Source: Sporohalobacter salinus
Lineage (GTDB): Bacteria; Bacillota; Halanaerobiia; Halobacteroidales; Acetohalobiaceae
Assembly: GCF_016908635.1 (NCBI RefSeq)
Contig: NZ_JAFBEG010000002.1
Span: 115,725 to 179,724, forward strand
Length of the DNA stretch: 64,000 bases
Direction: 5' to 3'
The position numbers were made by a program, and so were the translations under genes. The notes below the pieces were generated by a model. That model had not been told where the DNA came from. It saw only the letters and a program-made list of their open reading frames with translations, and did no database searches. Every line of letters begins with the position of its first letter. Positions within the stretch are counted from its first letter, which is position 1. Positions 34,814 through 55,013 of the stretch are shown here, one piece after another.

Positions 34814-35248
34814 ATGAGAAAAAAGAACAAAGTTAATTACTTGGCAGAGGAGTTAATTGATTATTTCCGGGAAGATGATAGGATCATGACAGTATATTTA
34901 TTTGGATCTTACGGGACGGAATATGAAACTAAATTAAGCGATATTGATTTAGCGATACTTTTTAATGATGATTCTATTTCTATGATGGAAGAGATGGGAA
35001 TTGCAGCGGAAATTGAGTTTAAACTGGACTTTGATGAAGTAGACCTTGTTAATTTAAATAAAGCTAGTGTAATACTCCAGCATGAAATAATTTCAAAGGG
35101 AGTAAAAATATTTGAACGAGAAGAGTTATATACAGCAGAATTTGTTGAAAAAACTTTAAAATATTATTTTGATTTTGGTTTAGTATATAAAAAATTTAAA
35201 GATGATTATCAAGAAGGATTGAGAGAGGAGTATTGTAGTAGTGATTAA
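34814..35248 (+). CDS. mntA: MNT-type nucleotidyltransferase antitoxin
   Basis: A minimal nucleotidyltransferase. In HepT/MntA systems this protein AMPylates the toxin's conserved Tyr to silence it. The GSX10DXD signature is intact: GSYGTEYETKLSDIDLAI (about residues 32-49), and the third acidic position lies in DEVDLVNL. 144 aa. ATG 34814 follows GAGGTGAG. It overlaps the downstream HEPN gene by eight bases, the usual layout. Confidence in the pair is high because both partners keep their motifs. Confidence 0.88.
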   Translation: MRKKNKVNYLAEELIDYFREDDRIMTVYLFGSYGTEYETKLSDIDLAILFNDDSISMMEEMGIAAEIEFKLDFDEVDLVNLNKASVILQHEIISKGVKIFEREELYTAEFVEKTLKYYFDFGLVYKKFKDDYQEGLREEYCSSD

Positions 35249-35660
35249 TGAAAGTAGAATTCAAGAAAAGATTTATTATATAAAACAGAATTTAGGCAAA
35301 TTGCGGGAATTAAGAAATTTGAGTAGAGAAGAATTTTTGAATGATTACAGAAACTATGATACAGCTAAGTATAATTTGCAGTCTGCTATTGAGGCAGTAA
35401 TTGATATAAGCAATCATATTATTTCTCGCAATAACTATAGAGTACCTAACAGTAATGCTGATACATTTCGAGTGCTTAATGAGGAAGGGATATTGCCTAA
35501 TGATAAATTGACTTCATATATTTCGATGGCTAAATTTAGAAACAAAGTAGTACATCTTTATGAAAAAATTGATGAAGAAGAAATTTATAAGATACTCAAA
35601 GGAAATTTAGTTGACTTTGAGGAGTTTATTGAGATAATTGTACAGGGGTTTTTGTCTTAA
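35241..35660 (+). CDS. hepT: HEPN toxin, HepT/DUF86 family
   Basis: An all-helical HEPN ribonuclease toxin. The catalytic and modification motif RX4HXY appears intact as RNKVVHLY (about residues 108-115). Arg and His are the RNase residues, and Tyr is the site AMPylated by MntA in characterised homologues. 139 aa, normal for DUF86. GTG 35241 lies inside the end of mntA, with GAGAGGAG upstream. It is the toxin half of an apparently functional type VII-like toxin-antitoxin locus between cysD and cysN. Confidence 0.88.
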   Translation: MINESRIQEKIYYIKQNLGKLRELRNLSREEFLNDYRNYDTAKYNLQSAIEAVIDISNHIISRNNYRVPNSNADTFRVLNEEGILPNDKLTSYISMAKFRNKVVHLYEKIDEEEIYKILKGNLVDFEEFIEIIVQGFLS

Positions 35661-36029: not shown

Positions 36030-36377
36030 ATGATGGAAGATTATCCCCTGTTATTTATTGATGAAGAAGATGAACAAAGAGAGTTGGAAAGGCGGTATAA
36101 GAAGGCCTTAGCTGCTGCTGAAGAAGCGGCTCGTTTATTAAAAGAAGATTATGGAGCTAAGAAAGTATGGATTTTTGGTTCTTTAACTGATCAGGACCGT
36201 TTCAATAAATGGTCGGATATTGATTTAGCAGTACAGGGAGTTTCTCCTGATAGATTTTATTCAGCTGTGGGAGCGGTAACAGGATTGATTAGTGATTTTA
36301 AAGTAGATCTTATAGATATAGATAACTGTAAGGATTCATTGGCTAAAGCTGTAGAGAGTGAGGGGCAAGAGATATGA
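36030..36377 (+). CDS. MNT-type nucleotidyltransferase, second locus
   Basis: A 115-residue minimal nucleotidyltransferase with intact GSLTDQDRFNKWSDIDLAV (about residues 51-69) and the later VDLIDID acidic strand. It is not closely similar to the MNT at 34814, so it is a separate acquisition rather than a tandem duplicate. A helical N-terminal extension (EERRYKKAL-like) precedes the fold. ATG 36030 has GTGAGAT upstream. The stop overlaps the start of a HEPN-type partner (ATGA), which is broken. Confidence 0.83.
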   Translation: MMEDYPLLFIDEEDEQRELERRYKKALAAAEEAARLLKEDYGAKKVWIFGSLTDQDRFNKWSDIDLAVQGVSPDRFYSAVGAVTGLISDFKVDLIDIDNCKDSLAKAVESEGQEI

Positions 36378-36721: not shown

Positions 36722-36878
36722 AGACACAGACTATCACAGACAGAACACAGACTAAAGACACAAAATAAATTAAAGTAGAGTATAGATTGGGTTAAATAAG
36801 TGAGAGTAAAAATATTATGTTTATTATTTATTTTATGAATTAGTCTGGTGTACAGTCTCGTGTAAGTCTTGTGTCAAA
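36722..36878. repeat. Inverted repeat array, copy 3
   Basis: The left arm has GACACAGACT (36723-36732), CACAGACAG (36735-36743), ACACAGACT (36745-36753) and GACACAAAA (36757-36765). The right arm has AGTCTGGTGT (36842-36851), AGTCTCGTGT (36854-36863), AGTCTTGTGT (36865-36874), then CAAAAG. The arms are reverse-complement-like and enclose about 75 AT-rich bases with no gene. The right arm ends about 30 bases before the cysN start, close to its ribosome-binding site. Confidence 0.7.
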
Positions 36879-36907
36879 AGAATATTAAAGATAGAGGAGA
36901 GTCGTTA

Positions 36908-38725
36908 ATGGCTACGGAATTAGTTGAACAGAAGGAAGATTTAAATATAGTTATTGCTGGTCATGTTGATCATGGTAAGAGTACGATTATCGGTAGGTTA
37001 TTGGCTGATACGGATTCTTTACCTGAAGGTAAGCTTGAACAGGTTAAGGAGACTTGTCGTAGGAATTCTAAGCCTTTTGAGTATGCTTTCTTGCTTGATG
37101 CTTTGAAGGATGAACAGTCGCAAGGAATTACTATTGATTCGGCCCGGTGTTTCTTTGAAACGGAAAAGCGGGAGTATATTATTCTCGATGCGCCGGGACA
37201 TATTGAGTTTTTGAAAAATATGGTCACAGGTGCTGCTAGAGCTGAAGCTGCTCTGTTGGTGATTGATGCTGACGAAGGAATCCAGGAGAATTCTAAGCGG
37301 CACGGTTATATGTTATCGATGTTGGGTATTGATCAGATTGTTGTGCTAGTTAATAAAATGGATTTAGTTGATTATGATCAGGAAATTTATGATGAAATTG
37401 TGGAGGACTATACAGAATTTTTGCGTAAGATAGATATAGAACCTGAGACTTTTGTACCTGTTAGCGGTATGGAAGGAGATAATATTGCTAGTTTATCTGA
37501 TAATACACCGTGGTATGAAGAGGAGACGGTATTAGAAGTATTAGATGATTTTGAAGCTGAGGAATTACCGATGGACAAACCTTTTAGAATGCCGGTCCAG
37601 GATGTATATAAGTTTACTAAAGGTGGGGATAACCGCCGAATTGTAGCAGGAACTATAACATCTGGACAGGTCAAAGTTGGAGATGAAGTTGTTTTCTATC
37701 CTTCGGGAAAGAAGAGTACTGTTAAGTCAATTGAAGGTTTTAACAAACCAACGACAGTAAGTGCCCGTGTAGGAGAATCTACTGGCTTTACTCTAGAAGA
37801 ACAGATATATATTACTCGTGGTGAGATAGCTACTATTGATGATGAACCACAGCCGGAAGCTACATCACGAATTAGAGCTAATATATTTTGGCTAGGTAGA
37901 GAATCAATGACTAAGAATAAAGAGTATTATTTGAAATTAGGTACAGCCAAAGTAAGAGCTAGGATAGAAGAGATTAAACGGGTAATTGATGCTTCAGACT
38001 TAAGTCAAAATGAAGCTAAGAATGAGATAGAAAGACATGATGTAGCGGAATGTGTGTTAAAGTTAGATAAAGCAATTGCCTTTGATTTAGCCAATGAAAT
38101 AGCTGAAACTAGTCGCTTTGTAATTGTAGATGAACATGAAATAGCTGGTGGGGGAATAGTACAAAAAGCCTTAGAAGATAAACAAAGTTGGGTTCGAGAA
38201 AAGGTGATGCTTAGGAACTATAAATGGGAGAAGAGCCATATTACCAATGATGAACGAGCAGAGAAATATAATCAAAAGTCAACTTTAGTCTTAATTACTG
38301 GCGAAGAGGATGTAGGTAAGAAGCCGACAGCTAAAGCATTAGAAAAGAGATTATTTAATGATGGTAAGATAGTTTACTTCTTGGGAATTGGTAATGTCTT
38401 ATATGGTATAGATGCTGATATAAAAGGAACAGAAGAAAATAATCATCGAGAGGAACATTTAAGAAGACTGGCAGAAGTGTCTAATATTATGCTGGATGCA
38501 GGAGCTATTTTAGCTGTGACAGCGGTAGAATTAACTCAAAATGATCTAGAGTTAATCAAAACTACTGTGAATCCAGATAAAATAGAGACAGTTTGGTTAG
38601 GAGAGAATATAACTACGGATATTAATTATGACTTGCATATACCTGAGTTTGAAGGTGAGAAAGAAGCAGCAAGAAAGATTAAAGGTTTGTTGCAGGAACG
38701 AGGGGCTATATTTAAGCCATGGTAA
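36908..38725 (+). CDS. cysN: Sulfate adenylyltransferase subunit 1 fused to a degenerate APS-kinase-like domain
   Basis: The N-terminal elongation-factor-like GTPase activates Cys[10 protein letters not shown] (about residues 18-26), the DAPGH switch and NKMDL are intact, followed by two beta-barrel domains. From about residue 455 a CysC-like domain follows, as in NodQ-type CysNC fusions, but its P-loop reads [11 protein letters not shown] instead of GxSGSGKST. The usual DGDNVR motif reads GIGNVLYG, and the tail is shorter than in CysC. ATG 36908 follows AGAGGAGAG; an upstream TTG 36869 falls in the repeat arm. ATP sulfurylase activity looks intact; APS kinase activity is doubtful. Confidence 0.9.
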
Positions 38726-38768: not shown

Positions 38769-40187
38769 ATGAAGAATTTGCTAATAGTTGGAGCTGGAGG
38801 TGCGGGCGAACACGTTCTTAATGAAATATTAAAAGGTAATGGTAATTTTAATTATAATATTATTGGTTTTTTAGATGCTGATGAAAGTAAGCATGGAGAC
38901 GCAATTAATGGTTATAAAGTATTAGGTCATCATTATAATATTAAGTTTTTCATTAATCAATATAAAGTAGATGAAGTTATTGTAGCAACTACTGCTATAG
39001 ACCATGAAAATTTAGAAGAAATATATAATAAAGTAAAAGAAGCAGATATAGATATTAAAGTATTACCAGCTTTTGAGGAATTATTAATAGATGAGCCTTT
39101 TACCAACCAATTACGCGAAGTTAAAGTAGAAGATTTATTAGGGAGAGAAGCTGTTAATATAAATAGTGAAGATATAAAACAATATATAAATAATAAGATA
39201 GTACTTGTAACAGGAGCTGCAGGTTCAATTGGCAGTGAATTATGTAGGCAAATAGCAAAGTATAAACCACAAGAATTAATTATGTTGGATGTTAATGAAA
39301 ATGATTTATATTTATTAGAATTATATTTAAAAAGGCATTATAATGATATAAATATTAATTTAGAGATTTGTAATATAAGAGAAGAAAAGAAATTAAATTA
39401 TTTATTTAATTTATATAAACCGGATGTAATATTTCATGCAGCAGCTCATAAGCATGTTCCTTTAATGGAAAAAAACATTGAAGAAGCGATTAAAAATAAT
39501 GTTATTGGTACTAGGAATCTTATAGAAAATTCTAATAAATATGATGTAGAAAAATTTGTTTTAATATCTACAGATAAAGCAGTTAATCCCACAAATGTTA
39601 TGGGAGCAACTAAAAGGTTAGCAGAACTTCTTGTAGAGAACTTAAATAATAGGTCAAGCACAGAATTTATGGCAGTAAGATTTGGTAATGTGCTGGGAAG
39701 TAATGGTAGTGTAATACCGATATTTAAATCTTTATTAGAAGAAGGTAGAGATTTAACTGTAACTCATGAAGAAGTAACTAGATATTTCATGACCATTCCT
39801 GAAGCAGCCCAACTTGTTCTTGAAGCAGGATACATAGGAACAGGCGGGGAAGTTTTTGTATTAGACATGGGCCAACCTGTGAAAATAATGGATTTAGCTA
39901 AACGAATGATAGAATTATCTGGTTTAGAATTAGGAAAAGATGTAGATATTAAGATAACTGGTTTAAGACCTGGAGAAAAATTATATGAAGAACTATTATA
40001 TGATATAGATTCTTGTCAAAAAACACAGAATGAAAAGATATATATAGCAGAAATAAAAGAGGAAGATATAGATATTAAAAAAGGTTTAGCTAAATTAGAA
40101 CAAGCATTAAAAACCTTTGATAGAGAAAAGATGAAATCTAAATTAAAAAAATTAGTACCAACTTATAAAGAAGCAGACTACAAATAG
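38769..40187 (+). CDS. UDP-GlcNAc 4,6-dehydratase-like enzyme, soluble form (LegB-like)
   Basis: A CapD/FlaA1/PglF-family dehydratase that would make UDP-4-keto-6-deoxy-GlcNAc, the first step to bacillosamine and legionaminic acid. An N-terminal Rossmann-like sensor domain (LLIVGAGGAGEHVL) is followed by the catalytic domain: VTGAAGSIGSELCRQI (about residues 146-161), HAAAHKHVPLME and the STDKAVNPTNVMGATKR active-site stretch. The four-helix membrane domain of PglF/WbpM is absent (472 aa). Codon use is markedly AT-rich. Position before a LegC-type aminotransferase supports the LegB role. Confidence 0.85.
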   Translation: MKNLLIVGAGGAGEHVLNEILKGNGNFNYNIIGFLDADESKHGDAINGYKVLGHHYNIKFFINQYKVDEVIVATTAIDHENLEEIYNKVKEADIDIKVLPAFEELLIDEPFTNQLREVKVEDLLGREAVNINSEDIKQYINNKIVLVTGAAGSIGSELCRQIAKYKPQELIMLDVNENDLYLLELYLKRHYNDININLEICNIREEKKLNYLFNLYKPDVIFHAAAHKHVPLMEKNIEEAIKNNVIGTRNLIENSNKYDVEKFVLISTDKAVNPTNVMGATKRLAELLVENLNNRSSTEFMAVRFGNVLGSNGSVIPIFKSLLEEGRDLTVTHEEVTRYFMTIPEAAQLVLEAGYIGTGGEVFVLDMGQPVKIMDLAKRMIELSGLELGKDVDIKITGLRPGEKLYEELLYDIDSCQKTQNEKIYIAEIKEEDIDIKKGLAKLEQALKTFDREKMKSKLKKLVPTYKEADYK

Positions 40188-40200
40188 TGAGGGGATTTTA

Positions 40201-41370
40201 ATGAGCTTAGACATACCGTTATCAGTGCCTAATTTATCTAAAGATATCCTTGAAAATGTAGAAGAGTGTATAGAAACTGGTTGGGTATCTACGGGAGGAA
40301 AATTTATAATAGAGTTTGAAGAAAAGACTGCTCAATATGTTGGTGTAGATGAAACAGTAGGAGTTCAAAGTGGTACAGCAGGACTTCATGTTGGATATAG
40401 ATTATTAGGAGTAGAAGCAGGGGATGAAGTAATTGTACCAACTGTTACATTTATAGCAACTGTTAATCCTATTAAATATTTAGGTGCACATCCTGTTTTT
40501 ATTGATTGTGATGATAGTTTAAATATGGATTTAGATAAATTAGAAGAGTTTTTGGAAAACAACTGTGAAATGACTGAAAAAGGATTAAGAAATAAGGAAA
40601 GCGGTAGGATTATAAAGGCGCTATGTGTAGTGCATGTTTTTGGAAATCCAATTAATATGGAGAAAGTAATGGAAATAGCTAAAAAATATGATTTAAAAGT
40701 AGTTGAAGATGCTGCTGAATCTTTAGGCTCTTTTTATACCGAGGGAAAATATGAAGGAGAGCATACAGGAACAATAGGGGATTTAGGAGTGTTTTCTTTT
40801 AATGCTAATAAGATATTGACTACAGGTGGCGGAGGAATGATTATTGCTAATGATAATGAATTATTAGAAAGGGCAAGATTTCTTTTAGCTCAAGCTAAAA
40901 CTGATCCTCTTTACTATAAACATGATAAAATAGGATATAATTATCGACTAACAAATATAGCAGCAGCTTTTGGTACAGAACAAATAGATAGGATAGAAAA
41001 TTTTATAGAAACTAAAAAAGAGAATTATAATTTATATAAACAAGAGATAGAAAGTATAGAAGGTTTAGAGTTATTAGATTTTAATGAAGGAACAAGACCT
41101 AATTACTGGTTTTATTCTGTAATTGTTGGTGAAGATAAATATGGTATTGATAGAGATGAGTTATTAGCAAAGCTAAATAAAATAGGAATACAAACTCGAC
41201 CTCTATGGGGATTAATGAATGATCAAAAACCATTTAAAGATTGTGTTGCTTATAAAATAGAAAAAGCTAGATATTATGTAAATAATTTAATAAATATACC
41301 TTGTAGTACAAACTTAACAAAGAAACAAGTGTTAGAAGTAGTAGAAAAATTAAAAGAATTTAAAAGATAG
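40201..41370 (+). CDS. legC: LegC-type PLP-dependent aminotransferase
   Basis: A DegT/DnrJ/EryC1 aminotransferase that converts the 4-keto sugar to UDP-4-amino-4,6-dideoxy-GlcNAc. It has VSTGGKFIIEFEE near the start, the substrate loop VQSGTAGLHVGY, VVEDAAESLGS, and the PLP lysine in FNANKILTTGGGG. 389 aa, typical of the LegC branch. ATG 40201 follows GAGGGG. The order dehydratase, aminotransferase, acetyltransferase, synthase, epimerase matches legionaminate clusters, so I use the legC name with moderate confidence. Confidence 0.88.
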   Translation: MSLDIPLSVPNLSKDILENVEECIETGWVSTGGKFIIEFEEKTAQYVGVDETVGVQSGTAGLHVGYRLLGVEAGDEVIVPTVTFIATVNPIKYLGAHPVFIDCDDSLNMDLDKLEEFLENNCEMTEKGLRNKESGRIIKALCVVHVFGNPINMEKVMEIAKKYDLKVVEDAAESLGSFYTEGKYEGEHTGTIGDLGVFSFNANKILTTGGGGMIIANDNELLERARFLLAQAKTDPLYYKHDKIGYNYRLTNIAAAFGTEQIDRIENFIETKKENYNLYKQEIESIEGLELLDFNEGTRPNYWFYSVIVGEDKYGIDRDELLAKLNKIGIQTRPLWGLMNDQKPFKDCVAYKIEKARYYVNNLINIPCSTNLTKKQVLEVVEKLKEFKR

Positions 41371-41381
41371 TGGCGGTAAAA

Positions 41382-42017
41382 ATGAAAAAAATTGTAATTA
41401 TAGGTGCTGGAGGACATGCAAAAGTTATAACGGATATTATTTTGAAGCGAAAAGAAAAATTAGAAGAAAATATAAAAATAGAAGGTTTTTTGGACGATAA
41501 ATATGATAAAAATGAAGAATCGGAAATATTAGGGATTCCTATAATAGGCAGTTTAGAAAGGATAAGAGAGCTATCAGATGATAATGTTTATTTTATAATA
41601 GCAATAGGAAATAACAAAATTAGAGAAAAAATTGCTAATGAATATGATAAAGTTGAATATTTTACTGTGATTCATCCAGAAGCTGTAATTGCGAATGGTG
41701 TAGAAATAGAGCAAGGTAGTGTAGTTATGGCAAATACAGTAATAAATAGTTGTTCTATAGTAGGAAGACATTGCATTATAAATACTGGAAGTATCATAGA
41801 ACATGATATTCTTATAGATGATTTTGTTCATATATCTCCAAATGTAGCACTTGCTGGAGAAGTGAAAGTAGGAAAAGGAAGTTGGATAGGAATGGGAAGT
41901 AATATAATTCAAGGTAAAAGTGTAGGTTCAGATACTATAATAGGAGCAGGGAGTGTAGTAGTAAAGGATATAGGAGATAATAAAAAAGCTTTTGGGGTAC
42001 CATGTAAGGAGAGGTAA
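41382..42017 (+). CDS. Sugar O/N-acetyltransferase, PglD/NeuD-like
   Basis: A left-handed beta-helix acyltransferase that would N-acetylate the 4-amino group (LegH/PglD step). An N-terminal Rossmann-like domain IVIIGAGGHAKVITDI leads into hexapeptide repeats (AVIANGVEIEQGSVVMANTV, NTGSIIEHDI, HISPNVALAGEVKVG, GSWIGMGSNIIQG). The catalytic His lies in IEHD. About 211 residues. ATG 41382 with GGCGGT is preferred; GTG 41370 overlaps the legC stop. The stop overlaps the next start. Confidence 0.88.
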   Translation: MKKIVIIGAGGHAKVITDIILKRKEKLEENIKIEGFLDDKYDKNEESEILGIPIIGSLERIRELSDDNVYFIIAIGNNKIREKIANEYDKVEYFTVIHPEAVIANGVEIEQGSVVMANTVINSCSIVGRHCIINTGSIIEHDILIDDFVHISPNVALAGEVKVGKGSWIGMGSNIIQGKSVGSDTIIGAGSVVVKDIGDNKKAFGVPCKER

Positions 42018-43015
42018 TGATGAAGACATTTATTATTGCTGAAGCAGGAGTAAATCATAATGGCGATATTAATTTAGCAAAGAAATTAATAGAAAAAGCT
42101 GCTTGGGCAGGGGCAGATGCAGTTAAATTTCAAAGTTTTAAAGCTGAGAAATTAGTATCAAAAAAAGCAGAAAAAGCTGATTATCAAAAAGAAACAACAG
42201 GTAAAGAAGAAAATCAACTTGAAATGATAAAAAAGCTAGAATTAGACTATAAAAAACACCAAGAATTAATTGATTATTGTCAAGCAAAAGAAATATTGTT
42301 TATGTCTTCAGCTTTTGATTTAGAAAGGATAGAATTGCTTAATAAATTAGGTATGAAAATATGGAAGATTCCATCTGGAGAAATAACTAATTTACCTTAT
42401 TTAAAGAAAATTGGAAGTCTTAATCAAAGAGTTGTAATGTCAACTGGTATGGCTAATTTATCAGAGATAGAAGCTGCTCTTGATGTATTAACTAAAGCGG
42501 GAGCAGAAGATATAACAGTATTGCATTGTAATACTGAATATCCAACTCCAATGGAAGATGTTAACCTTAATGCAATGCAGACTATAAAAGATGCTTTTAA
42601 AGTACCAGTAGGTTATTCAGATCATACATTAGGTATAGAAGTTCCAGTAGCAGCAGTAGCTATGGGAGCTAAAGTTATAGAAAAACACTTTACTCTTGAT
42701 AATAAGATGGAAGGTCCAGACCATAGAGCTAGTTTAGAGCCGAAAGAATTAAAATCAATGATTGAAGCTATTAGAAATATAGAAAAAGCTATGGGAAGTG
42801 GAATAAAGAAGCCATCTAAATCAGAGTTAAAGAATAAAGCTGTAGCTAGAAAGAGTATAGTTGCTGGTGAAGATATAAAAGCAGGAGAAGTCTTTAACAA
42901 AGAAAATTTAACTATTAAGAGACCTGGGATTGGGATAAGCCCTATGAGATGGGAAGAAATATTAGGAAAGATAGCTAAGAAAGATTTTAAAAAGGATGAG
43001 TTGATTAAATTATGA
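42017..43015 (+). CDS. legI: N,N'-diacetyllegionaminate synthase (NeuB/LegI family)
   Basis: LegI condenses 2,4-diacetamido-2,4,6-trideoxymannose with phosphoenolpyruvate to give N,N'-diacetyllegionaminic acid. It has IIAEAGVNHNGDINLAKKL at the start, the GADAVKFQSFKAEKLVS barrel motif, VLHCNTEYPTP and the EKHFTLDNKMEGPDHRAS signature. A C-terminal SAF antifreeze-like domain starts near residue 275 (RKSIVAGEDIKAGEV). 332 aa, normal. NeuB (sialic) versus LegI cannot be told by motif alone; the dehydratase and aminotransferase upstream favour legionaminate. Confidence 0.9.
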   Translation: MMKTFIIAEAGVNHNGDINLAKKLIEKAAWAGADAVKFQSFKAEKLVSKKAEKADYQKETTGKEENQLEMIKKLELDYKKHQELIDYCQAKEILFMSSAFDLERIELLNKLGMKIWKIPSGEITNLPYLKKIGSLNQRVVMSTGMANLSEIEAALDVLTKAGAEDITVLHCNTEYPTPMEDVNLNAMQTIKDAFKVPVGYSDHTLGIEVPVAAVAMGAKVIEKHFTLDNKMEGPDHRASLEPKELKSMIEAIRNIEKAMGSGIKKPSKSELKNKAVARKSIVAGEDIKAGEVFNKENLTIKRPGIGISPMRWEEILGKIAKKDFKKDELIKL

Positions 43016-44184
43016 CTTCCCCAAAAGTGTGTGTTGTAACAGGGACAAGAGCAGAATATGGTATATTAAGACCATTGATGGGAAAATTAGAAGATTCTAA
43101 GGAACTAGACTTACAATTAATAGTGACAGGAATGCATTTATCTCCTGAATTCGGTCTTACTTATAAAGAAATAGAAGAAGATGGATTTAAAATTGATGAA
43201 AAAATAGAAGTTTTAATGAGCTCGGATACTCATATAGGAGTATCCAAATCGATGGGAATGACTTTGATAAGTTTTTCGGAAGCTTATGAAAGATTGCAAC
43301 CTGATATGATAGTAATATTAGGAGATAGATATGAGACATTTTCAGCTATGACAGCGGCGACAGTTGCTAATATACCTGTAGCTCATTTACATGGGGGAGA
43401 AATTACCGAAGGAGCATTTGATGACTCTTTTCGTCATAGTATGACTAAAATGTCTTATTTACATTTTACTTCTACAGAAGAGTATAGAAAAAGGGTTATA
43501 CAATTAGGAGAATCTCCTCAAAGAGTATTTAATGTAGGAGCTATGGGAGTTGAGAATGCATTAAATTTAGATCTTTTATCTAAACAAGAGGTAGAAGATA
43601 AATTAGAAATAGATTTAGGAGAAGAATATATAGTTATAGTTTTTCATCCTGTAACTCTAGAAAATAATGCAGCTAAAAGTCAGATTAGAGAATTGTTGTC
43701 GGCATTAGATGAAAATGATGATTTAGTTAAAATGTTCATAAAAGGTAATTCAGATACAGAAGGAAGAATTATAAATCAAGAAATAGATGAATATGTTCAA
43801 CAGAACAATAACTCGTATGCTTTTACTTCTTTACCAATAGAATATTATTTGAGTTTGATAAAGAATAGCAAAGCTTTAGTTGGAAATTCTTCTAGTGGTA
43901 TAATAGAAGCACCGAGCTTTAAGATTGCTACAATAAATATAGGTGACAGACAAAAGGGTAGAGTAAAAGCTGAATCTGTAATAGATTGTTCTCCTAAGAA
44001 AAAAGATATCAGAGAAGCTTTAGGATTAATTAATTCTAAAGAGTTTCAAACAAAATTAAAATATATTGATAATCCTTATGGAAAGGGAAATGCATCTAAA
44101 AAAGTAATTAAAACAATTGAAGAATTTTTGTTAGATAAAAAAATAGATCTGAAGAAAAAATTCTATGATATAGAGTTGGAGTGA
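43012..44184 (+). CDS. legG: Hydrolysing UDP-sugar 2-epimerase (LegG/NeuC family)
   Basis: LegG releases UDP and epimerises UDP-diacetylbacillosamine to the trideoxymannose substrate of LegI. VCVVTGTRAEYGILRPLM opens the protein, VILGDRYETFSAMTAA and VAHLHGGEITEGAFDDSFRH are the NeuC/LegG signatures, and LVGNSSSGIIEAPSF is the nucleotide-binding C-terminal motif. 390 aa. ATG 43012 overlaps the legI stop (ATGA). Substrate choice between UDP-GlcNAc and UDP-diacetylbacillosamine is inferred from the cluster. Confidence 0.9.
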   Translation: MTSPKVCVVTGTRAEYGILRPLMGKLEDSKELDLQLIVTGMHLSPEFGLTYKEIEEDGFKIDEKIEVLMSSDTHIGVSKSMGMTLISFSEAYERLQPDMIVILGDRYETFSAMTAATVANIPVAHLHGGEITEGAFDDSFRHSMTKMSYLHFTSTEEYRKRVIQLGESPQRVFNVGAMGVENALNLDLLSKQEVEDKLEIDLGEEYIVIVFHPVTLENNAAKSQIRELLSALDENDDLVKMFIKGNSDTEGRIINQEIDEYVQQNNNSYAFTSLPIEYYLSLIKNSKALVGNSSSGIIEAPSFKIATINIGDRQKGRVKAESVIDCSPKKKDIREALGLINSKEFQTKLKYIDNPYGKGNASKKVIKTIEEFLLDKKIDLKKKFYDIELE

Positions 44185-44188
44185 TGAA

Positions 44189-45172
44189 ATGGAATTTTTA
44201 GTTATTGGTTTAGGGTCTATGGGAAAAAGAAGAATAAGGCTTCTAAAAAATAATTTTAAAAATATAAAGATAGTTGGAGTAGATAAGAAAGAAGATAGAA
44301 GAAATGAAAGTGAAAAAAAGTATAATATTTCTACTTATAAAACAATAGAAAAAGCAGTAAAAAATAATAATCTAACAGCAGGAATAGTGTGTACTTCTCC
44401 GTTATCTCATGCAAATATTATAAAGATTTGTTTTTCCCATGAACTTCATGTATTTACAGAAATTAATTTAGTAAAAGATGAGTATGAAGATATAATAGAA
44501 GCTTCTAAAAATAAAGGATTAGAGTTGTTTTTATCTTCTACAATGATATATAGAAAAGAGTTAGATTATATCTATAAGAAAGTAGAAAATGAAGAACAAA
44601 AAGTAAATTATAGATATCATGTAGGGCAATATTTGCCTGATTGGCATCCTTGGGAAGATTATAATGACTTTTTTGTTGAAAATAAAAGGACTAATGGTTG
44701 TCGGGAATTATTTGCTATTGAATTACCTTGGATAATAAGAACTTTTGGGGAAATCGAAGAGATAAAATGTTTTAAAGATAAAATATCAGAATTAAACATT
44801 GAATATCCAGATATTTATTCTGTTTTATTAAAACATAAAGATGGTCATATAGGTAATATTAATATGGATATAGTTTCAAGAAAAGCAATAAGAAATTTAG
44901 AAGTGTATTCAGAAAATATGCATTTGTTTTGGGATGGAACTCCTACAGGTCTTGAAGAATACAATTTTGAATCAGAAGAAATGAAAAATATAGATACGTA
45001 TAAAAATATTGATCAAAATAATAATTATGCCTCAAATATAATAGAAAATGTTTATTTAGATGAATTGAAAATATTTATAGATAAAATAAAAGGGCAAAAT
45101 AATGAAAAATATACTTTTGAAGATGACTTATATACTTTATCTATAATTGACCAAATTGAAGGGAATATATAA
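44189..45172 (+). CDS. Gfo/Idh/MocA-family oxidoreductase
   Basis: A NAD(P)-dependent sugar oxidoreductase. The Rossmann motif is LVIGLGSMGKRRIRLL, followed by VCTSPLSHANI and a probable substrate region YLPDWHPWEDYNDFF. 327 aa. It is a tandem paralogue of the next gene, which has YLPDWRPNQDYREVY at the same place. Both lie inside the legionaminate cluster between legG and the CMP transferase. They may make a variant of the nonulosonate or a partner sugar; the reaction is unknown. Confidence 0.8.
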   Translation: MEFLVIGLGSMGKRRIRLLKNNFKNIKIVGVDKKEDRRNESEKKYNISTYKTIEKAVKNNNLTAGIVCTSPLSHANIIKICFSHELHVFTEINLVKDEYEDIIEASKNKGLELFLSSTMIYRKELDYIYKKVENEEQKVNYRYHVGQYLPDWHPWEDYNDFFVENKRTNGCRELFAIELPWIIRTFGEIEEIKCFKDKISELNIEYPDIYSVLLKHKDGHIGNINMDIVSRKAIRNLEVYSENMHLFWDGTPTGLEEYNFESEEMKNIDTYKNIDQNNNYASNIIENVYLDELKIFIDKIKGQNNEKYTFEDDLYTLSIIDQIEGNI

Positions 45173-45173
45173 T

Positions 45174-46124
45174 ATGAAAGTATGTTTTTTTGGGTTAGGG
45201 TCTATAGGAAAGAAACATCTTAAGAATTTATGTAAAATAGCTAAAGAAAAGGACATTAATTTAGATGTACATGCTTTTAGAACAAGAAAGAATAGTTTAG
45301 AATTAAAAGGGTTAGATAAAGAGATATATAGTAAAAAATTGCTAGAAGAGGATTATGATATAATATTTGTTACTAATCCAACTTTTAAGCATTTTGAGAC
45401 AATAAAGATGATGGAAAATAAAACTAAAAATATGTTTATAGAAAAACCTATTTTTGACAACATAAATTATGATATTACAGATATTAAATTTGAAAATGGG
45501 ATATATTATGTAGCAGCTCCATTACGATATACCGGCATAGTGGATAAGTTAAAGGAAATTATAAAAGATAAGAATGTATATTCGATAAGGTCTATATGTT
45601 CTAGTTATTTACCTGATTGGAGACCAAATCAGGATTATAGAGAAGTGTATAGTGCTAAAAAGGAATTAGGTGGAGGAGTATCAATAGATTTGATTCATGA
45701 ATGGGATTACTTAACTTATCTTTTTGGGTTTCCTAAAAGAGTAGTTAATTTCCAAGGTAAATATTCTCATTTAGAGATAGATAGTGAAGATTTATCCATC
45801 TATATTGCAGAGTATGAAGATAAGTTATTAGAACTTCATTTGGATTATTTTGGTATAAGATCTAAAAGAGAAGTAGAAATTTATACGAAAGAAGGTACAA
45901 TAATAGGAGATTTTATAAAAGAAGAAATAAGTTTTACAAGTGATGAAAAAGATAAAATAAATTTTTTAGCTAATGAGGATATGTATATTGCAGAAATGAG
46001 ACATTTTATTGAAATGGTATTGGATAATAAAAACAATCCTAATTCACCAGAACATGCCTATAATGTTTTAAAATTAATAAAGGAGTCTGAAAAAAATGAA
46101 AGTATTAATAACAATCTGTGGTAG
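45174..46124 (+). CDS. Gfo/Idh/MocA-family oxidoreductase, tandem paralogue
   Basis: Rossmann motif VCFFGLGSIGKKHLKNL, then FVTNPTFKHFET, FIEKPIF and YLPDWRPNQDYREVYSAKKELGG, typical of Gfo/Idh/MocA enzymes; the EKP lysine is a usual catalytic residue. The upstream paralogue has EINLVKD at that place, so this copy may be the more conventional enzyme. ATG 45174 is preferred over TTG 45147 and starts one base after the upstream stop. 316 residues. It overlaps the CMP transferase gene by 29 bases. Confidence 0.8.
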   Translation: MKVCFFGLGSIGKKHLKNLCKIAKEKDINLDVHAFRTRKNSLELKGLDKEIYSKKLLEEDYDIIFVTNPTFKHFETIKMMENKTKNMFIEKPIFDNINYDITDIKFENGIYYVAAPLRYTGIVDKLKEIIKDKNVYSIRSICSSYLPDWRPNQDYREVYSAKKELGGGVSIDLIHEWDYLTYLFGFPKRVVNFQGKYSHLEIDSEDLSIYIAEYEDKLLELHLDYFGIRSKREVEIYTKEGTIIGDFIKEEISFTSDEKDKINFLANEDMYIAEMRHFIEMVLDNKNNPNSPEHAYNVLKLIKESEKNESINNNLW

Positions 46125-46854
46125 AGATGGATCTAAAGGAGTTAAAAACAAAAACTTTAGAGAGTTCTTGGGATATCCATTAATTGATTATACAATAGCA
46201 GCAGCCAAATTATTTAAAGAAAGAAATGACGATTTAGAAGTAGATATTTGTGTAAATAGTGATAGCGAAAAATTGTTACATATAGGGACAAAATTTAGTG
46301 AAGTAGATGCTATTAAAAGGCCAGTTGAATTAGCTCAAGATAGTTCTCCTAAATTACCAGTTATTAAACATTCAACAAAAGAAATGGAAAGCAAATATGG
46401 TTTGAACTATGATTATGTTATAGATTTAGATATAACTTCTCCTTTAAGAAAGGTAGAAGATATAGAAAATGCTTTACAAAAAGCAAAAGATAAAAAAGAA
46501 GTAGATGTAGTATATTCGGTAGTAGAAGCAAGGAGAAATCCATATTTTAATATGGTAGAAAGAAAAGAAGGGAAAATAAAGCAAATAAAAGAAACCGATT
46601 ATGTAAGAAGACAAGATGCACCGGAAGTATATGATATGAATGCTTCAATTTATTGTTATAGAAGAGATAGTTTGTTAAACGAATTAAAAGTTTCTCCATT
46701 TGATGGGAAAAATGATATTATGGTTATGCAGGATACTGCCGTTTTAGATATAGATAGTGAAGAAGATTTTGAATTATTAGAGATATTAGGTAATTATTTT
46801 TTCAAGGAGGATTTTAAAGAAATTAAGAGGAAAGTAGTATTAGATAATAATTAA
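46096..46854 (+). CDS. legF: CMP-legionaminate synthetase (NeuA/LegF/PtmB-like cytidylyltransferase)
   Basis: This activates the nonulosonate with CTP. The N-terminus ITICGRDGSKGVKNKNFREF is the cytidylyltransferase signature with the GSKGVKNKN loop of the LegF/PtmB branch, and DLDITSPLRKVEDIENAL carries the metal-binding aspartates. Residues near 170-185 (YVRRQDAPEVYDMNASIY) match the acceptor-binding region. 252 aa. ATG 46096 follows AAGGAGTC within the end of the preceding gene. It completes the pathway; the legF name is by cluster logic. Confidence 0.88.
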   Translation: MKVLITICGRDGSKGVKNKNFREFLGYPLIDYTIAAAKLFKERNDDLEVDICVNSDSEKLLHIGTKFSEVDAIKRPVELAQDSSPKLPVIKHSTKEMESKYGLNYDYVIDLDITSPLRKVEDIENALQKAKDKKEVDVVYSVVEARRNPYFNMVERKEGKIKQIKETDYVRRQDAPEVYDMNASIYCYRRDSLLNELKVSPFDGKNDIMVMQDTAVLDIDSEEDFELLEILGNYFFKEDFKEIKRKVVLDNN

Positions 46855-46905
46855 ATTAATGACTGATTATTTAGGTTTGTTGTGTTGGATGGAAGGAGAT
46901 TATAT

Positions 46906-48165
46906 ATGGCAAAGAAAATTTTGTTAGTAGAGCAACATCGTAATAGAGGATTTGAAAGCAATTTAATAATTGGGGCTTATTTAAAGAAAATAGGGTATAG
47001 GGTGCAATTTTCATTTACAGGATCGCAGTTAGTAAAGAATATAGTAGACTTCAAACCGGATTTAGTTTATTATCCTTGGGTAACTAAATATGTATATAGT
47101 ATATTAAAAAAAAGGAATCCAGAAGTTCCTATAGTTAATAGTTTCAAAGAGCAGAATGGGATTCTCGCTGGTTCTAATTTGAATGATAGACTTAGAAAGA
47201 ATTTCAAGTATTCAGATTATGTTTTAGTTTGGGGCAATATGATTAAGAATAAAATGGAATCAGAAGGATTAGATACTTCTAAAGTTAGTATAACAGGAGT
47301 GCCAAGATTTGATCTTTATTTTAATGAAAAACTTCAAAAGGCTTTAGTACCTAGCAAATCAGAAATAGCTGCTAAATTTAAATTACCTTTAAATAAAAAG
47401 TGGTGCTTGATAGCTTTAGATTTTCCGATATTATTTCAAAGTCCAAAACGGGTTAATGAATTAATAAATAGAAGAGTTTATACTAAAGAATATATTAATC
47501 AAACCCAAAAAGCATATTCAAAACTAGGAAAATGGCTTCGGAAATATTTAAGTAGACATAGTAACGTTTTATTTATAATTAGGCCTCATCCAGGTTCTAA
47601 TTTAAAACAAATAAAAGCAGACCAAGATATTGAAGATTATGATAATGTTAGATATATTTCTAATGGAACAATAAATAAGTGGATTATTAACTGTGATAAA
47701 TATATTACTAGATTTAGCACTTCGATAACAGAAGCATGGATGGCTAAAAAGTCTACTTTACTTTTGATGAAAGATCTATTGCCTGATGATTATAAAAATC
47801 ATGTTCATATTAAAGAATCTAAATTTATTGCTAATGACTATATACAATTTGAAAAGTCTTTATTAAAAGATAAGCAATATGCAAATCATAATAAATTTTT
47901 AAAAAATTATATTTATAAACTTGATGGTAAGTCATGTTATCGTACTGCTAAAGCAATAAATAAGATAGCTAATAGAGTCGTGGTTAATGAATATTACACT
48001 TCTTATTTTTTGGAGGATAATATAGAAAAAATTAAAGCTAATATAAAAGTTTTATTAAATGAAACTGGTTTAAATAAATATAATCCGTTTGAGCGTCCAA
48101 ATGAAGAGCATATTTCTTCTAAAAAGATAACTTCTAAATTAAAAACAATTGAAGAATGTATTTAA
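46906..48165 (+). CDS. Surface carbohydrate biosynthesis protein, putative glycosyltransferase
   Basis: A protein of about 419 residues with a GT-B-like layout. LLVEQHRNRGFESNLIIGAY at the start, VSITGVPRFDLYF in the middle, FIIRPHPGSNLKQIKADQD, and ITRFSTSITEAWMAKKST near residues 268-283 resemble proteins annotated as surface carbohydrate biosynthesis and the polysialyl- or glycerophosphotransferase-like superfamily. Adjacent to the CMP-legionaminate gene, it could be the transferase that uses this donor, which is inference. ATG 46906 follows GGAAGGAG. Confidence 0.6.
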   Translation: MAKKILLVEQHRNRGFESNLIIGAYLKKIGYRVQFSFTGSQLVKNIVDFKPDLVYYPWVTKYVYSILKKRNPEVPIVNSFKEQNGILAGSNLNDRLRKNFKYSDYVLVWGNMIKNKMESEGLDTSKVSITGVPRFDLYFNEKLQKALVPSKSEIAAKFKLPLNKKWCLIALDFPILFQSPKRVNELINRRVYTKEYINQTQKAYSKLGKWLRKYLSRHSNVLFIIRPHPGSNLKQIKADQDIEDYDNVRYISNGTINKWIINCDKYITRFSTSITEAWMAKKSTLLLMKDLLPDDYKNHVHIKESKFIANDYIQFEKSLLKDKQYANHNKFLKNYIYKLDGKSCYRTAKAINKIANRVVVNEYYTSYFLEDNIEKIKANIKVLLNETGLNKYNPFERPNEEHISSKKITSKLKTIEECI

Positions 48166-48181
48166 GCTGGAGAGGATATAA

Positions 48182-49684
48182 GTGAATGATTTTAGTAAGC
48201 AGATTGATATCATTACCAAGCAGGGAAGCCTTAGTTTTGTTAATAAAATTATAAATTTTGGTTTGAAATTTATATTGCAAGTAATATTAGCAAGATTATT
48301 AGGAGTTAAAACTTATGGTATTTATATTTTAAGTGTTAGTTTGATAAGTATTTTATCTATGTTTGTTTCATATGGGATGAGCACTACCTTAACAAAATTG
48401 GTTAATAAATATAGAAATCAAGATGAAATAAAGAGTTTATTGTTATTAGCTTTAATTATACCTATTTTATTTTCATGTTTAGTTTTATTTATTTTTATTT
48501 TATTTAAAGGTAAAATTATAAATTATTTTAATCCAAGAATATCTGAATTAATGTCCATAATATTATTGATAACTTTATTTCACAGTATATTAATGAATTT
48601 ATCCAAAGGTGTAATTAGAGGATTTAAAAAAACAGCTCTAAGTAATTTTTTTAATTCTGTTTTTTATCCAGGAGTTAAATTAATATTGTTTTTAATTTTA
48701 TTTTTTATAATTGAGGTTAGTGGTCTTAAAGCTATTTTTTATTCTCATTTAATTTCAGTATTAATTACAATTATTTTGGTTAGTAAATATATTTTGAGTT
48801 TTATTCAAAATAATCGCTTATCATACTTTGGGGATTTATTAGAGGTTACAAAAAATGTTTTTAAAATTTCTCATTATTTTCTATTTATTGGTCTTGGTGG
48901 TCAAGTAAGAATGAAAACTGATAGATTAATGTTGGGTGGAATTATAAGTGAAAGTGCTGTTGGTATATATAATCCAGCTTCTAGATTAGCGTATTTCGTA
49001 TTTTCTTTATCAAACCCCCTAATTCAAGTTTATATGCCTATAGTTGCTGAGGCGTATGAAAAAAATAATTTGGAAATGATAGAGAGATTATCTAGTTCTT
49101 TAGTAAGATGGATAACATACATTTTAGCTTTTGTTTCTTTACCATTATTATTTCATGGAAAATATATACTGGGATTAGCTTTTGGAAATGAATTCATTTC
49201 TGGTTATCCTATATTAGTAGTTTTGATAATTGGAAATTTAGTTTCAGGAATTTTAGTGGTTTCAGGGCATATTCTGACTATGACAAATAAGCAAGATGTA
49301 GGTTTTATAAATAATATTTTTATAGTTTTATTAAATATTATTTTAAATTTTATATTAATAAAAAAAGTAGGAACAATAGGAGCAGCTATAGCAACTTCGT
49401 TAGTAATGTTTATTTTTAGTTTTGTTCAATATTTGCAAGTGAAGAGATGTTTTAAAATTAGTTTGTTTGATTTTCAGTTTTTTAAAGTAATAATAGGTGT
49501 GATTGGAATGAGTTTTGTTTATTATATAAGTAAAATTGGATTGAAATATGAATTATTAGAAATTGGAATAGGAGGAATAATTTCATTTTTAACAATGTTA
49601 ATATATATAATGAAAGTTGATGTTAGAGAAGAGGATAACTTTATTTTTGATAAATTAATGAAAATGTTGGGGGGAGAAGTATGA
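48182..49684 (+). CDS. wzx: Repeat-unit flippase (Wzx, MOP superfamily)
   Basis: A polytopic membrane protein with about 12-14 hydrophobic segments over 500 residues. ARLLGVKTYGIYILSVSL near the N-terminus and RMKTDRLMLGGIISESAVG in the middle match the polysaccharide biosynthesis/MATE-like flippase family. It would flip undecaprenyl-linked repeat units to the periplasmic face. GTG 48182 follows GGAGAGG. It ends four bases into the next gene (ATGA overlap). Confidence 0.88.
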   Translation: MNDFSKQIDIITKQGSLSFVNKIINFGLKFILQVILARLLGVKTYGIYILSVSLISILSMFVSYGMSTTLTKLVNKYRNQDEIKSLLLLALIIPILFSCLVLFIFILFKGKIINYFNPRISELMSIILLITLFHSILMNLSKGVIRGFKKTALSNFFNSVFYPGVKLILFLILFFIIEVSGLKAIFYSHLISVLITIILVSKYILSFIQNNRLSYFGDLLEVTKNVFKISHYFLFIGLGGQVRMKTDRLMLGGIISESAVGIYNPASRLAYFVFSLSNPLIQVYMPIVAEAYEKNNLEMIERLSSSLVRWITYILAFVSLPLLFHGKYILGLAFGNEFISGYPILVVLIIGNLVSGILVVSGHILTMTNKQDVGFINNIFIVLLNIILNFILIKKVGTIGAAIATSLVMFIFSFVQYLQVKRCFKISLFDFQFFKVIIGVIGMSFVYYISKIGLKYELLEIGIGGIISFLTMLIYIMKVDVREEDNFIFDKLMKMLGGEV

Positions 49685-50550
49685 ATAAAAAAAATATTAA
49701 ACAGCCTCATTTAATGGTGATTGGAGCTCAAAAAGCAGCTACTACTTGGTTACAACATGTATTAGATTATAATGATCAGTTTTGGCTTCCGTCTGATTTT
49801 CAAGAAGTTCATTTTTTTGATCGTCATTATGATAGAGGAATTGATTATTATTTGAATTTATATAAAAATGCTCCTGATGATAAAATCACTTGTGATGTTA
49901 CTCCAGATTATTTAGATCATCCGTTGGTACCGGATAGAATTTTAGAAACTTCATTTTTTTTAGATCGTTCTGTAAAATTTATTTTGATCTGTAGAGAACC
50001 AGTTGCAAGATACTTTTCTGCATTTCAAATGTCATTGAGGCAAGGGGAAAGTTGGGATTTATCAGAGGCTATAATAGACTCTTCAGATTTATTTAATAAA
50101 GGACTTTATTATAAGCATATGAAAAATTATTTTAAATATTTTAAGAGAGATGATTTTTTATTATTATTATTTGACAATATAAAAGATAACAAAGAATTAA
50201 TTTTTAAAAGAATTTCTACTTTTTTAAACATGGAAAATAATATAGTAGACCCTTATAAAGGAAAAAGGGTAAATGCTGGAGGAATGCGTAAAATTCGATT
50301 TTTAAGCCAAGTTTGGAAGGCGGGAGGAAAGATATTGAGGTTTTTAGGTTGGACTTCTTTATTGCATAATATTAAAAGTTCAAATATAATTCAAAGACTT
50401 TATAAAATGAATAGTTCTAATTATAATATATCTCAAGAAGAAAAAAATGCACTAAAAAATTTGAAAAAAGATTATAAAAAAGATGTATTATTATTTTCTA
50501 GATTAATTGATAATTCAGATTTAATCAAAAGGTGGGGATATGATGAATAG
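49681..50550 (+). CDS. Sulfotransferase-domain protein
   Basis: The 5'-phosphosulfate loop is IGAQKAATTWLQHVL (about residues 13-27) and the 3'-phosphate motif is ILICREPVARYFSAFQMSLR, as in heparan-sulfate-type sulfotransferases. HFFDRHYDRGIDYYLNLY also fits that family. 289 aa. It differs from the two CSCG-containing sulfotransferases in this window and so probably modifies another position or sugar. The start overlaps wzx. Lies within the O-antigen assembly genes. Confidence 0.85.
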   Translation: MNKKNIKQPHLMVIGAQKAATTWLQHVLDYNDQFWLPSDFQEVHFFDRHYDRGIDYYLNLYKNAPDDKITCDVTPDYLDHPLVPDRILETSFFLDRSVKFILICREPVARYFSAFQMSLRQGESWDLSEAIIDSSDLFNKGLYYKHMKNYFKYFKRDDFLLLLFDNIKDNKELIFKRISTFLNMENNIVDPYKGKRVNAGGMRKIRFLSQVWKAGGKILRFLGWTSLLHNIKSSNIIQRLYKMNSSNYNISQEEKNALKNLKKDYKKDVLLFSRLIDNSDLIKRWGYDE

Positions 50551-53018: not shown

Positions 53019-53849
53019 GTGAAGAAAAAAACAATAATTTATATAGCAGGATATGGCAGGAGTGGTTCAACATTATTAGAACGCGTATTAAGTAGTAATA
53101 AAAAATTATTTGGTTTAGGAGAATTAACTAATTTTTTAGATCTAATTGAAGAAAAAAAATCTTATTGTTCTTGTGGAGAAGAGTTGAAAAAATGTAGTTT
53201 TTGGTCTAATATAATAGATAAAATTATAAGACAGAGAAATTATAATAATAATTTTAATCAAAATATATTTAGTTTTATATTTGAAGAAATTCCTAATGAT
53301 GTAGAATATGTGATAGATTCTTCTAAAACAGCTCGAACAAATTATTTTAGACCGATTAAACTTTTAAAAACTACTGATTTTGATGTAAAAATAATTCATT
53401 TAGTAAGAGATGGTAGAGGATGTATGTGGTCTAATCTTAAGGGTTCTAATAGGAAAATGGAAAAAGGATTAGATCCTAAACTTCCATTTGCAGCTTTTAG
53501 AACAATTATAGGCTGGCCTCTTGCTAATATTTCAGCTCATTTATTTCAGTTGTTTTCTACAGAAGAGAATTATTATAGAGTGAGATATGAAGATTTTGTA
53601 GAAACTCCAGGAAAGGTTCTTGAAAAAATAGGTAAATTTTTAAATGTTAATTTTGATCAGCAAATAAAAATGCTTAAAAAGCAAAAAGATATACCTGTGG
53701 GACATCAGTTATCTGGGAATAGATTAAGATCCAAAAGGAAAATTATTCTTAATAAGGATGTTAGTTGGAGAAATAATCTTACTCTTAGACATAAATTACT
53801 TTTTTGGTGTTTAAATTGGCCCCTTGCATTATTATATAATTATAAATAA
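53019..53849 (+). CDS. Sulfotransferase-family protein
   Basis: 5'-phosphosulfate loop AGYGRSGSTLLERVL (about residues 10-24), the cysteine group CSCGEELKKCSFW (about 48-60), VIDSSKTAR, the 3'-phosphate motif HLVRDGRGCMWS, and HQLSGNRLR near the end. The same features in the same order occur in the protein at 27956, so the two are paralogues of one subfamily. 276 aa. GTG 53019 follows GGAGGGA. Target unknown. Confidence 0.82.
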   Translation: MKKKTIIYIAGYGRSGSTLLERVLSSNKKLFGLGELTNFLDLIEEKKSYCSCGEELKKCSFWSNIIDKIIRQRNYNNNFNQNIFSFIFEEIPNDVEYVIDSSKTARTNYFRPIKLLKTTDFDVKIIHLVRDGRGCMWSNLKGSNRKMEKGLDPKLPFAAFRTIIGWPLANISAHLFQLFSTEENYYRVRYEDFVETPGKVLEKIGKFLNVNFDQQIKMLKKQKDIPVGHQLSGNRLRSKRKIILNKDVSWRNNLTLRHKLLFWCLNWPLALLYNYK

Positions 53850-54522: not shown

Positions 54523-55013
54523 CTAAATTAGCTGGAGAGAACTTATGTTATTTATATTGGAAGAATTTTGGAGTGTCGACTATATCATTAAGATATTTCA
54601 CTGTTTTTGGAGAGAGACATCGGCCAGATATGGCTTTTCATATCTTTATTAAAGAAATTTTAACAGATGGTAAGATTACTATCTTTGGTGATGGGAAGCA
54701 ATCTCGTAACTTTACTTATGTAGGTGATGTTGTACAGGCTAATATTTTAGCTGCCAAAAGTGAAGTTGAAGGTGAAATATTTAACGTTGGTGGAGCAGGA
54801 GAAAGAGTTACGTTAAATAAGACCATTGAAATTATAGAAGATATAATAGGAAAAGAAGTAGAAAAGGAATTTCAATCAGTAGCTAAAGGTGATGTAAAGC
54901 ATACCGAAGCAGATGAAACAAAAATTAGAGAAATGTTAGACTATAAACCACAAGTAGATTTACGAGAAGGATTGGAAAGAGAAGTAGAATGGCTAAAACA
55001 GATTTATAAGTAG
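54522..55013 (+). pseudogene. 5'-truncated second copy of the nucleotide-sugar epimerase
   Basis: From the TCT codon at 54522 the frame reads SKLAGENLCYLYWKNF and continues to the C-terminus in step with the full epimerase at 30153-31097. About 20 differences in 146 aligned residues, counted by eye from the GTG at 54573. The first half, including the Rossmann motif and the catalytic Tyr, is absent. The only in-frame start is GTG 54573, with poor ribosome-site spacing. An inverted repeat abuts the break. The remaining protein could not bind NAD, so it is very probably non-functional. Confidence 0.85.

Follow-up and report, generated by a model that had tools for sequence, protein, structure and literature searches.

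What does a legionaminic acid gene block make when two further oxidoreductase genes lie inside it? The question is raised by a 64,000-nucleotide stretch of the Sporohalobacter salinus genome (contig NZ_JAFBEG010000002.1; the whole stretch is referred to as the window), in which positions 38769-46854 hold eight open reading frames (ORFs), all on the forward strand in the ORF list, separated by no more than 13 bases or overlapping by up to 29. The original prediction, made from the sequence, read them as a 4,6-dehydratase, LegC, an acetyltransferase, LegI, LegG, two Gfo/Idh/MocA proteins and LegF, and both the coordinates and family searches agree with this order; the family scores exclude chance matches. 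The two Gfo/Idh/MocA-fold proteins are termed GIM1 and GIM2 here, and GIM is used for proteins of this fold in general.

There is an even chance, in our estimate, that GIM1 and GIM2 are an oxidation-reduction pair that inverts one stereocentre, most likely C8, within a legionaminate block that uses the UDP-linked route. By that route the block would make a CMP-activated sugar of the 5,7-di-N-acetyl-legionaminate type. GIM1 would use NAD+ to convert one secondary hydroxyl of the nonulosonate to a ketone, and GIM2 would use NADPH to reduce the ketone from the opposite face, inverting that centre and giving, if it is C8, 8-epilegionaminic acid or a close relative; with oxidation linked to NAD and reduction to NADPH, the inversion would be driven in one direction. 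LegF would then activate the epimer for a Wzx/Wzy-type, probably sulfated, surface polysaccharide. Gene content, conservation of the pair, the lost triad of GIM1 and the patterns of partners and residues are observed; from comparison of these we infer the cofactors, the direction, the position at C8, the order relative to CMP activation and the product of the pair.

Nonulosonic acids shape the recognition of bacteria by hosts and phages, and the isomer is often guessed from NeuB/NeuC-type genes; should the isomer be set by the pair, this guess would be wrong for a large group of Bacillota. The pair also makes two things testable: which enzymes invert C8 of legionaminic acid, and how an oxidoreductase could work after loss of the known catalytic residues.

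Conservation and active-site residues of the pair

When species genomes of bacteria and archaea were scanned with GIM1, at least 594 stretches matched, at least 580 of them were related, and the best 80 of these were kept; together with loci from Subdoligranulum and from a second genome of the class to which S. salinus belongs (G305), these make up 82 distinct GIM1 loci besides the window. GIM2 is present in 78 of the 82 and lies directly downstream of GIM1 in 75, while four loci have GIM1 with no GIM2 detected. A CMP-synthetase gene lies no more than 2.5 kb downstream of GIM1 in 75/82 loci, LegI or LegG is encoded in 74, with LegG directly upstream of GIM1 in 52, and the usual gene order is LegI-LegG-GIM1-GIM2-LegF. 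Going by record titles, most hosts of these loci (the best 80 of 580 and the two others) are Clostridia; a few are Bacilli, Fusobacteriota and Bacteroidota, and one is a methanogen assembly (Methanocorpusculaceae; L098), which has the GIM1-GIM2 module; the closest relatives of GIM1 among the best 80 of 580 come from Clostridium, Romboutsia and Fusobacteriaceae assemblies (56-59% identity).

Within the 59 genomes of the class that were searched, its own included, GIM1 occurs only in S. salinus and in G305 (48% identity), a third match, in G310, having 25% identity. The G+C content is 25% at 44-46 kb, where GIM1 and GIM2 lie, and about 24% at 48-54 kb, versus 32-40% over the first 22 kb of the window; the block was likely gained horizontally. 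The original prediction had treated the two oxidoreductases as additions that might modify the sugar. Modification is supported in part, but the genes are not oddities of one genome, because the pair is conserved across many Bacillota and also in a few other phyla. No description of the GIM1-GIM2 pair was found in the open-access literature searched; in Aeromonas a GIM is present in group III clusters (PMC7874193).

Conservation of residues was counted over 84 GIM1 rows and 80 GIM2 rows, in which one place is counted twice (L007 is the same as L011), and the structure alignments hold 57 and 56 rows, respectively. GIM2 is a canonical member of the family, with GxGxxG, EKP and the Asp and His of the catalytic triad; EKP and residues D172, I174, H175, E176, D178 and Y179 (D-x-I-H-E-x-D-Y) are invariant in 80/80 rows. 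GIM1 has the fold and GxGxxG but not the catalytic Lys/Asp/His: Leu or Ile takes the place of Lys in 84/84 rows, and where Asp and His would stand GIM1 has other residues or a gap in the alignment. Other features of GIM1 are invariant in the 84 rows, namely GLGSMG, E91, N93, L94, YxYHxGQYLPxWHPW and R172-E173. Decay of the GIM1 gene is ruled out by 52 invariant columns across the 57 aligned rows, and a recent tandem duplication of GIM2 is ruled out by the separate grouping of GIM1 and GIM2 (100/100 each) in the tree. In the first tree 9 of 11 single GIMs fall together with GIM2 (96/93); in a second tree, which includes viral sequences, the deepest split is weak (60/73).

Both proteins are confidently modelled as Gfo/Idh/MocA folds (predicted local distance difference test, pLDDT, 94.8 for GIM1 and 94.1 for GIM2). 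Solved fold members match them with tied scores that single out no substrate, and the top Foldseek rows (GenD2 with NAD for GIM1, an NADP-bound pneumococcal oxidoreductase for GIM2) therefore carry no weight. A slightly varied YLPDWxP stretch is common to GIM1, GIM2 and the GIMs of other nonulosonate clusters. The HxxH active-site motif of NanOx and YjhC is absent from the pair, GIM2 reading DLIH and GIM1 having neither.

As a rule, an acidic residue after the second beta strand goes with NAD and a basic or neutral one with NADP. At this position GIM1 has Asp in 83 and Glu in 1 of 84 rows (residue 32; D32 in the window) and GIM2 has Arg in 79 and Lys in 1 of 80 rows (residue 36; R36 in the window), which fits NAD for GIM1 and NADP for GIM2.

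Exchange of partners

Twelve GIM loci lacking GIM1 were chosen for having a GIM together with nonulosonate or CMP-synthetase genes: Escherichia coli CS18F and O61, whose modules are about 99% identical and amount to one event in this count, Ensifer, Sulfitobacter, Rhizobium, a sphingomonad, Legionella adelaidensis, Halorussus, and G186, G086, G403 and G285. The Legionella and Sulfitobacter loci begin at the start of the record, with no synthase gene seen, and G285 lies at a contig end, with a CMP-synthetase-like gene named by eye and no synthase seen. Four further loci were excluded: G108 (a NeuB-like protein at 35% identity, with a short-chain dehydrogenase/reductase, SDR), G074 (no SDR seen), and G357 and G350 (GIM adjoining an SDR, no synthase seen).

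Eleven of these 12 loci have an SDR adjoining either the GIM or the CMP-synthetase gene. Among the 82 GIM1 loci the SDR profile finds one SDR no more than 3 kb from GIM1 (L098) and another at 6.4 kb (L061); GIM1 therefore appears to replace the SDR. The five SDR partners tested belong to PF13561, the family of EpaB and AciE, and behind the SDR of the sphingomonad locus lies another, distant GIM. The window block has no PF13561 partner, and its GIM and CMP-synthetase genes are adjacent as in the O61-type module. The cofactor residue is unreadable in two GIM/SDR pairs (sphingomonad and Legionella); in all 11 readable pairs, compared by eye, exactly one member is acidic. The acidic member is the SDR in E. 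coli, Ensifer, Sulfitobacter, Rhizobium, G186, G086, G403, G108 and the viral loci L137 and L138, and the arrangement is reversed in G285, where the GIM is acidic.

A class III aminotransferase is found near other GIMs, and the four such GIMs counted (Halorussus, viral L133, the first GIM of viral L134 and GIM1 of L058) are all acidic at the cofactor position, again read by eye. In L058 (10001-13033), where GIM2 was not detected, the aminotransferase and then a CMP-synthetase come after GIM1; no other GIM1 locus gave such an aminotransferase hit. In L133 the aminotransferase is adjacent to the GIM, in Halorussus it lies within 1 kb and in L134 at 4 kb, and the GIMs of L133 and L134 branch next to the GIM1 clade (support 100/99 and 100/98). 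A GIM1 that makes a ketone is the simplest reading, because its type can be followed by a reductase or a transaminase. GIM1 might thus stand for a new class of NAD-dependent nonulosonate oxidases without the triad, which pass a ketone to exchangeable partners (GIM2 for epimerization, a class III aminotransferase for an amino-nonulosonate); this proposal is tentative, and we hold it to be possible though short of probable. On that proposal, numerous Bacillota (many from the gut, going by record titles) and some phages would make nonulosonates other than plain legionaminic acid, and gene-based calls of legionaminic acid for them would be wrong.

L058 may itself hold an amino-nonulosonate pathway. 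In the viral collection, six of the eight loci found (L133, L134, L135, L136, L137 and L138) bear GIMs of this kind, L137 and L138 with an SDR, and endolysin, portal or terminase genes lie near the GIM in L133, L137 and L138. These are possibly phage-borne modules that modify nonulosonates, comparable to the prophage genes for EpaA and EpaB; the E. coli CS18F GIM had no match in the phage collection. GIM and SDR genes are also neighbours in L115 and L116, where no nonulosonate synthase was seen and NAL/DHDPS-type aldolase-like proteins, identified by eye, are nearby; the same pairing is possibly used in catabolism.

The proposed substrate and inverted centre, and rival explanations

The gene set for CMP-legionaminic acid is complete (4,6-dehydratase, LegC, acetyltransferase, LegG, LegI and LegF, the last through PF02348 and context). 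That the pathway is of the legionaminic type, as first claimed, is upheld by a T-x9-M-x3-K signature at residues 268-282 of the dehydratase, by a LegC score above that family's own cut-off and by LegG, which is closer to the E. coli O161-type cluster protein (51% identity) than to the O24-type cluster NeuC (43%); LegI does not discriminate between the O161-type and O24-type counterparts (56% and 54%). A triad like T-x9-M-x3-K is described for CapE/SpsM-type dehydratases (PMC7439481). N-acetylation by LegH, like all substrates in the block, is assigned by family. N-Acetylneuraminic acid (Neu5Ac) was dropped as the main product since the dehydratase and LegC stand before the synthase, though LegI identity alone leaves this undecided.

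The S. salinus genome has no close PtmE (best match 32%, to the nucleotidyltransferase part only) and no close LegB (best match 36%), so the UDP-linked route is likely and the GDP-linked (Campylobacter) route was rejected. The suggested start from UDP-GlcNAc is supported, and in this genome the block is most likely fed from that precursor. PtmE-like matches occur in 59 of the 82 GIM1 loci and LegB-like matches in 28, 26 of them at 55% identity or more; a PglF-type gene with neither is found in two of these loci, many of which end at contig ends. A known counterpart of the route is the sps legionaminic acid pathway of Bacillus subtilis, which is UDP-linked with a Met-type dehydratase, SpsM, and in which PglF apparently could rescue an SpsM mutant (PMC7439481); it differs in being without the oxidoreductase pair, the words "oxidoreductase" and "MocA" being absent from the main text of that paper.

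The choice of C8 is based on E. coli O61, the only chemically anchored relative found, whose O antigen includes 8eLeg5Ac7Ac (8-epilegionaminic acid; PMC3628348). The O61 cluster (elg genes), with the order GIM-CTP-SDR, resembles the window in bringing a dehydratase, LegC, NeuC, NeuB, an acetyltransferase, a CMP-synthetase and a GIM into one block, and its GIM has YLPDWRP and EKP (aligned from the CS18F copy, more than 99% identical in DNA). It differs in having one GIM and an SDR rather than two GIMs, an additional nucleotidyltransferase gene and a dehydratase with 28% identity to that of the window. The E. coli O161-type cluster, whose antigen contains plain legionaminic acid, has neither GIM nor SDR.

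Added genes also accompany the legionaminate set in Acinetobacter baumannii (lgaABCDEF/elaABC), where ElaA is a putative oxidoreductase and the elaABC 8-epimer module occupies the place of lgaG, the CMP-synthetase gene (PMC9676051). The 8-epimer there would have its own CMP-synthetase, and ElaABC would correspond to GIM-CTP-SDR. EpaA and EpaB of A. baumannii prophages, two proteins with oxidoreductase and cytidylyltransferase domains, together produce 8-epipseudaminic acid (PMC12053666); they differ from the window pair in their aldo-keto reductase and SDR folds, in their substrate, pseudaminic acid (PMC12053666), and in the fusion of CTP_transf_3 to the aldo-keto reductase, whereas the window LegF consists of PF02348 only. 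For acinetaminic acid, AciE is the proposed determinant of C8 (PMC5595891). The authors of that paper suggest CMP-Leg5Ac7Ac as the substrate of epimerization, an order other than the one in which the pair acts before activation. GIM1-GIM2 is best seen as a widespread two-protein variant of the known 8-epimer modules.

Several points weigh against this reading. As GIM1 is without the Lys/Asp/His used by most of the family, its role as an oxidase is unproved; the cofactor reading comes from a single residue and is a rule of thumb, and the second GIM in L134 is apparently acidic too. The GIMs of L134 have long branches and an unsure place in the tree, and viral L135 and L136 encode an acidic-type GIM, a CMP-synthetase and NeuB with no SDR or aminotransferase seen. 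GIM1, GIM2 and an SDR occur together within 3 kb in L098. Being the nearest to the window GIM1, the 82 loci under-count rarer partner types; they are also interrelated, so the Fisher value computed for the loci overstates independence. The O61 GIM has 30% identity to GIM2 and 23% to GIM1, and no single-gene test of it was met in the open-access literature searched.

If GIM2 were the sole enzyme, oxidizing and reducing one centre with a bound cofactor, GIM1 could be a non-catalytic subunit that shapes or regulates a mixed oligomer. The replaced Lys, Asp and His positions of GIM1 and the adjacency of the genes, which suits a complex, favour such an arrangement, as does RgNanOx, a protein of the same fold that runs a redox-neutral cycle at C4 in converting 2,7-anhydro-Neu5Ac to Neu5Ac (PMC7535918). 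We nevertheless consider it unlikely: GIM1 occurs without a detected GIM2 in four loci, once adjoining an aminotransferase (L058), the contrast of acidic and basic residues at the cofactor position points to two functional enzymes, and EIN of GIM1 is aligned with EIP of PmdC, which is a dehydrogenase with this fold, so Lys is not in every dehydrogenase of the fold.

The pair might instead invert or modify C4 or C7, with 4-epilegionaminic acid or a different isomer as product, since RgNanOx oxidizes C4 of a nonulosonate (PMC7535918) and legionaminic acid has natural 4- and 7-epimers (PMC5595891). RgNanOx and YjhC share with the window proteins the GIM fold, working on a nonulosonate through a keto intermediate, and differ in being catabolic single enzymes with an HxxH motif (PMC7535918); their VIA Z scores (28.5 and 29.5 with GIM1, 27.7 and 28.2 with GIM2) are tied with those of many fold members. 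The HxxH of RgNanOx contrasts with DxxH in GIM2, and the anchored relative, O61, has the 8-epimer, which leaves C4 or C7 a minor chance. It is very improbable that the two enzymes act on a different sugar of the polysaccharide, for instance through WlbA/GnnA-like oxidation of C3 of a UDP-sugar, and lie in the block by chance: GenD2, WlbA and GnnA are among the best fold matches, all tied with further members, but LegI or LegG accompanies GIM1 in 74/82 loci (the remaining eight may include truncated loci) and the pair has the YLPDWxP stretch of GIMs from other nonulosonate clusters.

Coordinates and the surrounding polysaccharide locus

Table 1. Features of the legionaminate block and its surroundings, in positions of the window.
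Feature	Position	Strand	Basis
PglF/WbpM-type nucleotide-sugar 4,6-dehydratase, N-terminal Rossmann-like domain	38769..40187	+	PF02719 (Polysacc_synt_2) 401 bits
LegC aminotransferase	40201..41370	+	TIGR04181 478 bits, cut-off 420
LegH/NeuD-type sugar N-acetyltransferase	41370..42017	+	TIGR03570 223 bits, cut-off 160.8
LegI/NeuB nonulosonate synthase	42017..43015	+	TIGR03569 525 bits, cut-off 399.65; PF03102
LegG/NeuC hydrolysing 2-epimerase	43012..44184	+	TIGR03568 508 bits, cut-off 235.9
GIM1, Gfo/Idh/MocA-fold protein	44189..45172	+	PF01408 44 bits; 84-row conservation; model pLDDT 94.8
GIM1 residues 90-94 TEINL, replacing family EKP	44456..44470	+	84-row conservation
GIM2, canonical Gfo/Idh/MocA oxidoreductase	45174..46124	+	PF01408; 80-row conservation; model pLDDT 94.1
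GIM2 EKP motif, residues 90-92	45441..45449	+	kept in 80/80 rows
GIM2 DLIHEWDY, residues 172-179 (catalytic Asp and His positions)	45687..45710	+	80-row conservation
LegF-type CMP-nonulosonate synthetase	46096..46854	+	PF02348 (CTP_transf_3) 54.7 bits; TIGR03584 97 bits, below cut-off 205.7
Surface-carbohydrate glycosyltransferase-like protein	46882..48165	+	NF046086 142.7 bits (cut-off 200); TIGR04396 102 bits (cut-off 125)
Sulfotransferases	49681-50550 and 53019-53849		family searches

The ATG at 45174 is preferred as the GIM2 start because it agrees with homologues, and the listed TTG start (45147) is probably not used; the LegF start overlaps the GIM2 end by 29 bases. The name LegF rests on PF02348 and context because the protein falls under the PseF equivalog cut-off (97 versus 205.7 bits). 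The glycosyltransferase-like protein that follows LegF, related to two families and under both cut-offs, is a candidate nonulosonate transferase.

Genes for a sugar transferase, a flippase, an O-antigen-ligase-domain protein, glycosyltransferases and two sulfotransferases surround the block and form a polysaccharide locus. Lipopolysaccharide, the destination named at the outset, or a related glycan is possible because LpxC is encoded in the genome, 5.7 kb before the window. Genes for sulfate activation lie in the same locus (a PAPS-reductase-domain protein at 33636 and CysN at 36869), and the nonulosonate-bearing polysaccharide is probably sulfated.

At 36869-38725 CysN carries a fused APS-kinase-like domain (39.5 bits). 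The nucleotide-binding loop of this domain, GEEDVGKKP, appears degenerate by eye, and the genome has a strong match to APS kinase (229 bits) at another place. Near the sulfate genes, at 34814-35660 and 36030-36377, are a Polbeta nucleotidyltransferase/HepT-like pair of the toxin-antitoxin type and a second nucleotidyltransferase. Further downstream, 54573-55013 encodes a 146-residue epimerase fragment that by eye resembles the C-terminal half of the epimerase at 30153-31097, a partial duplication.

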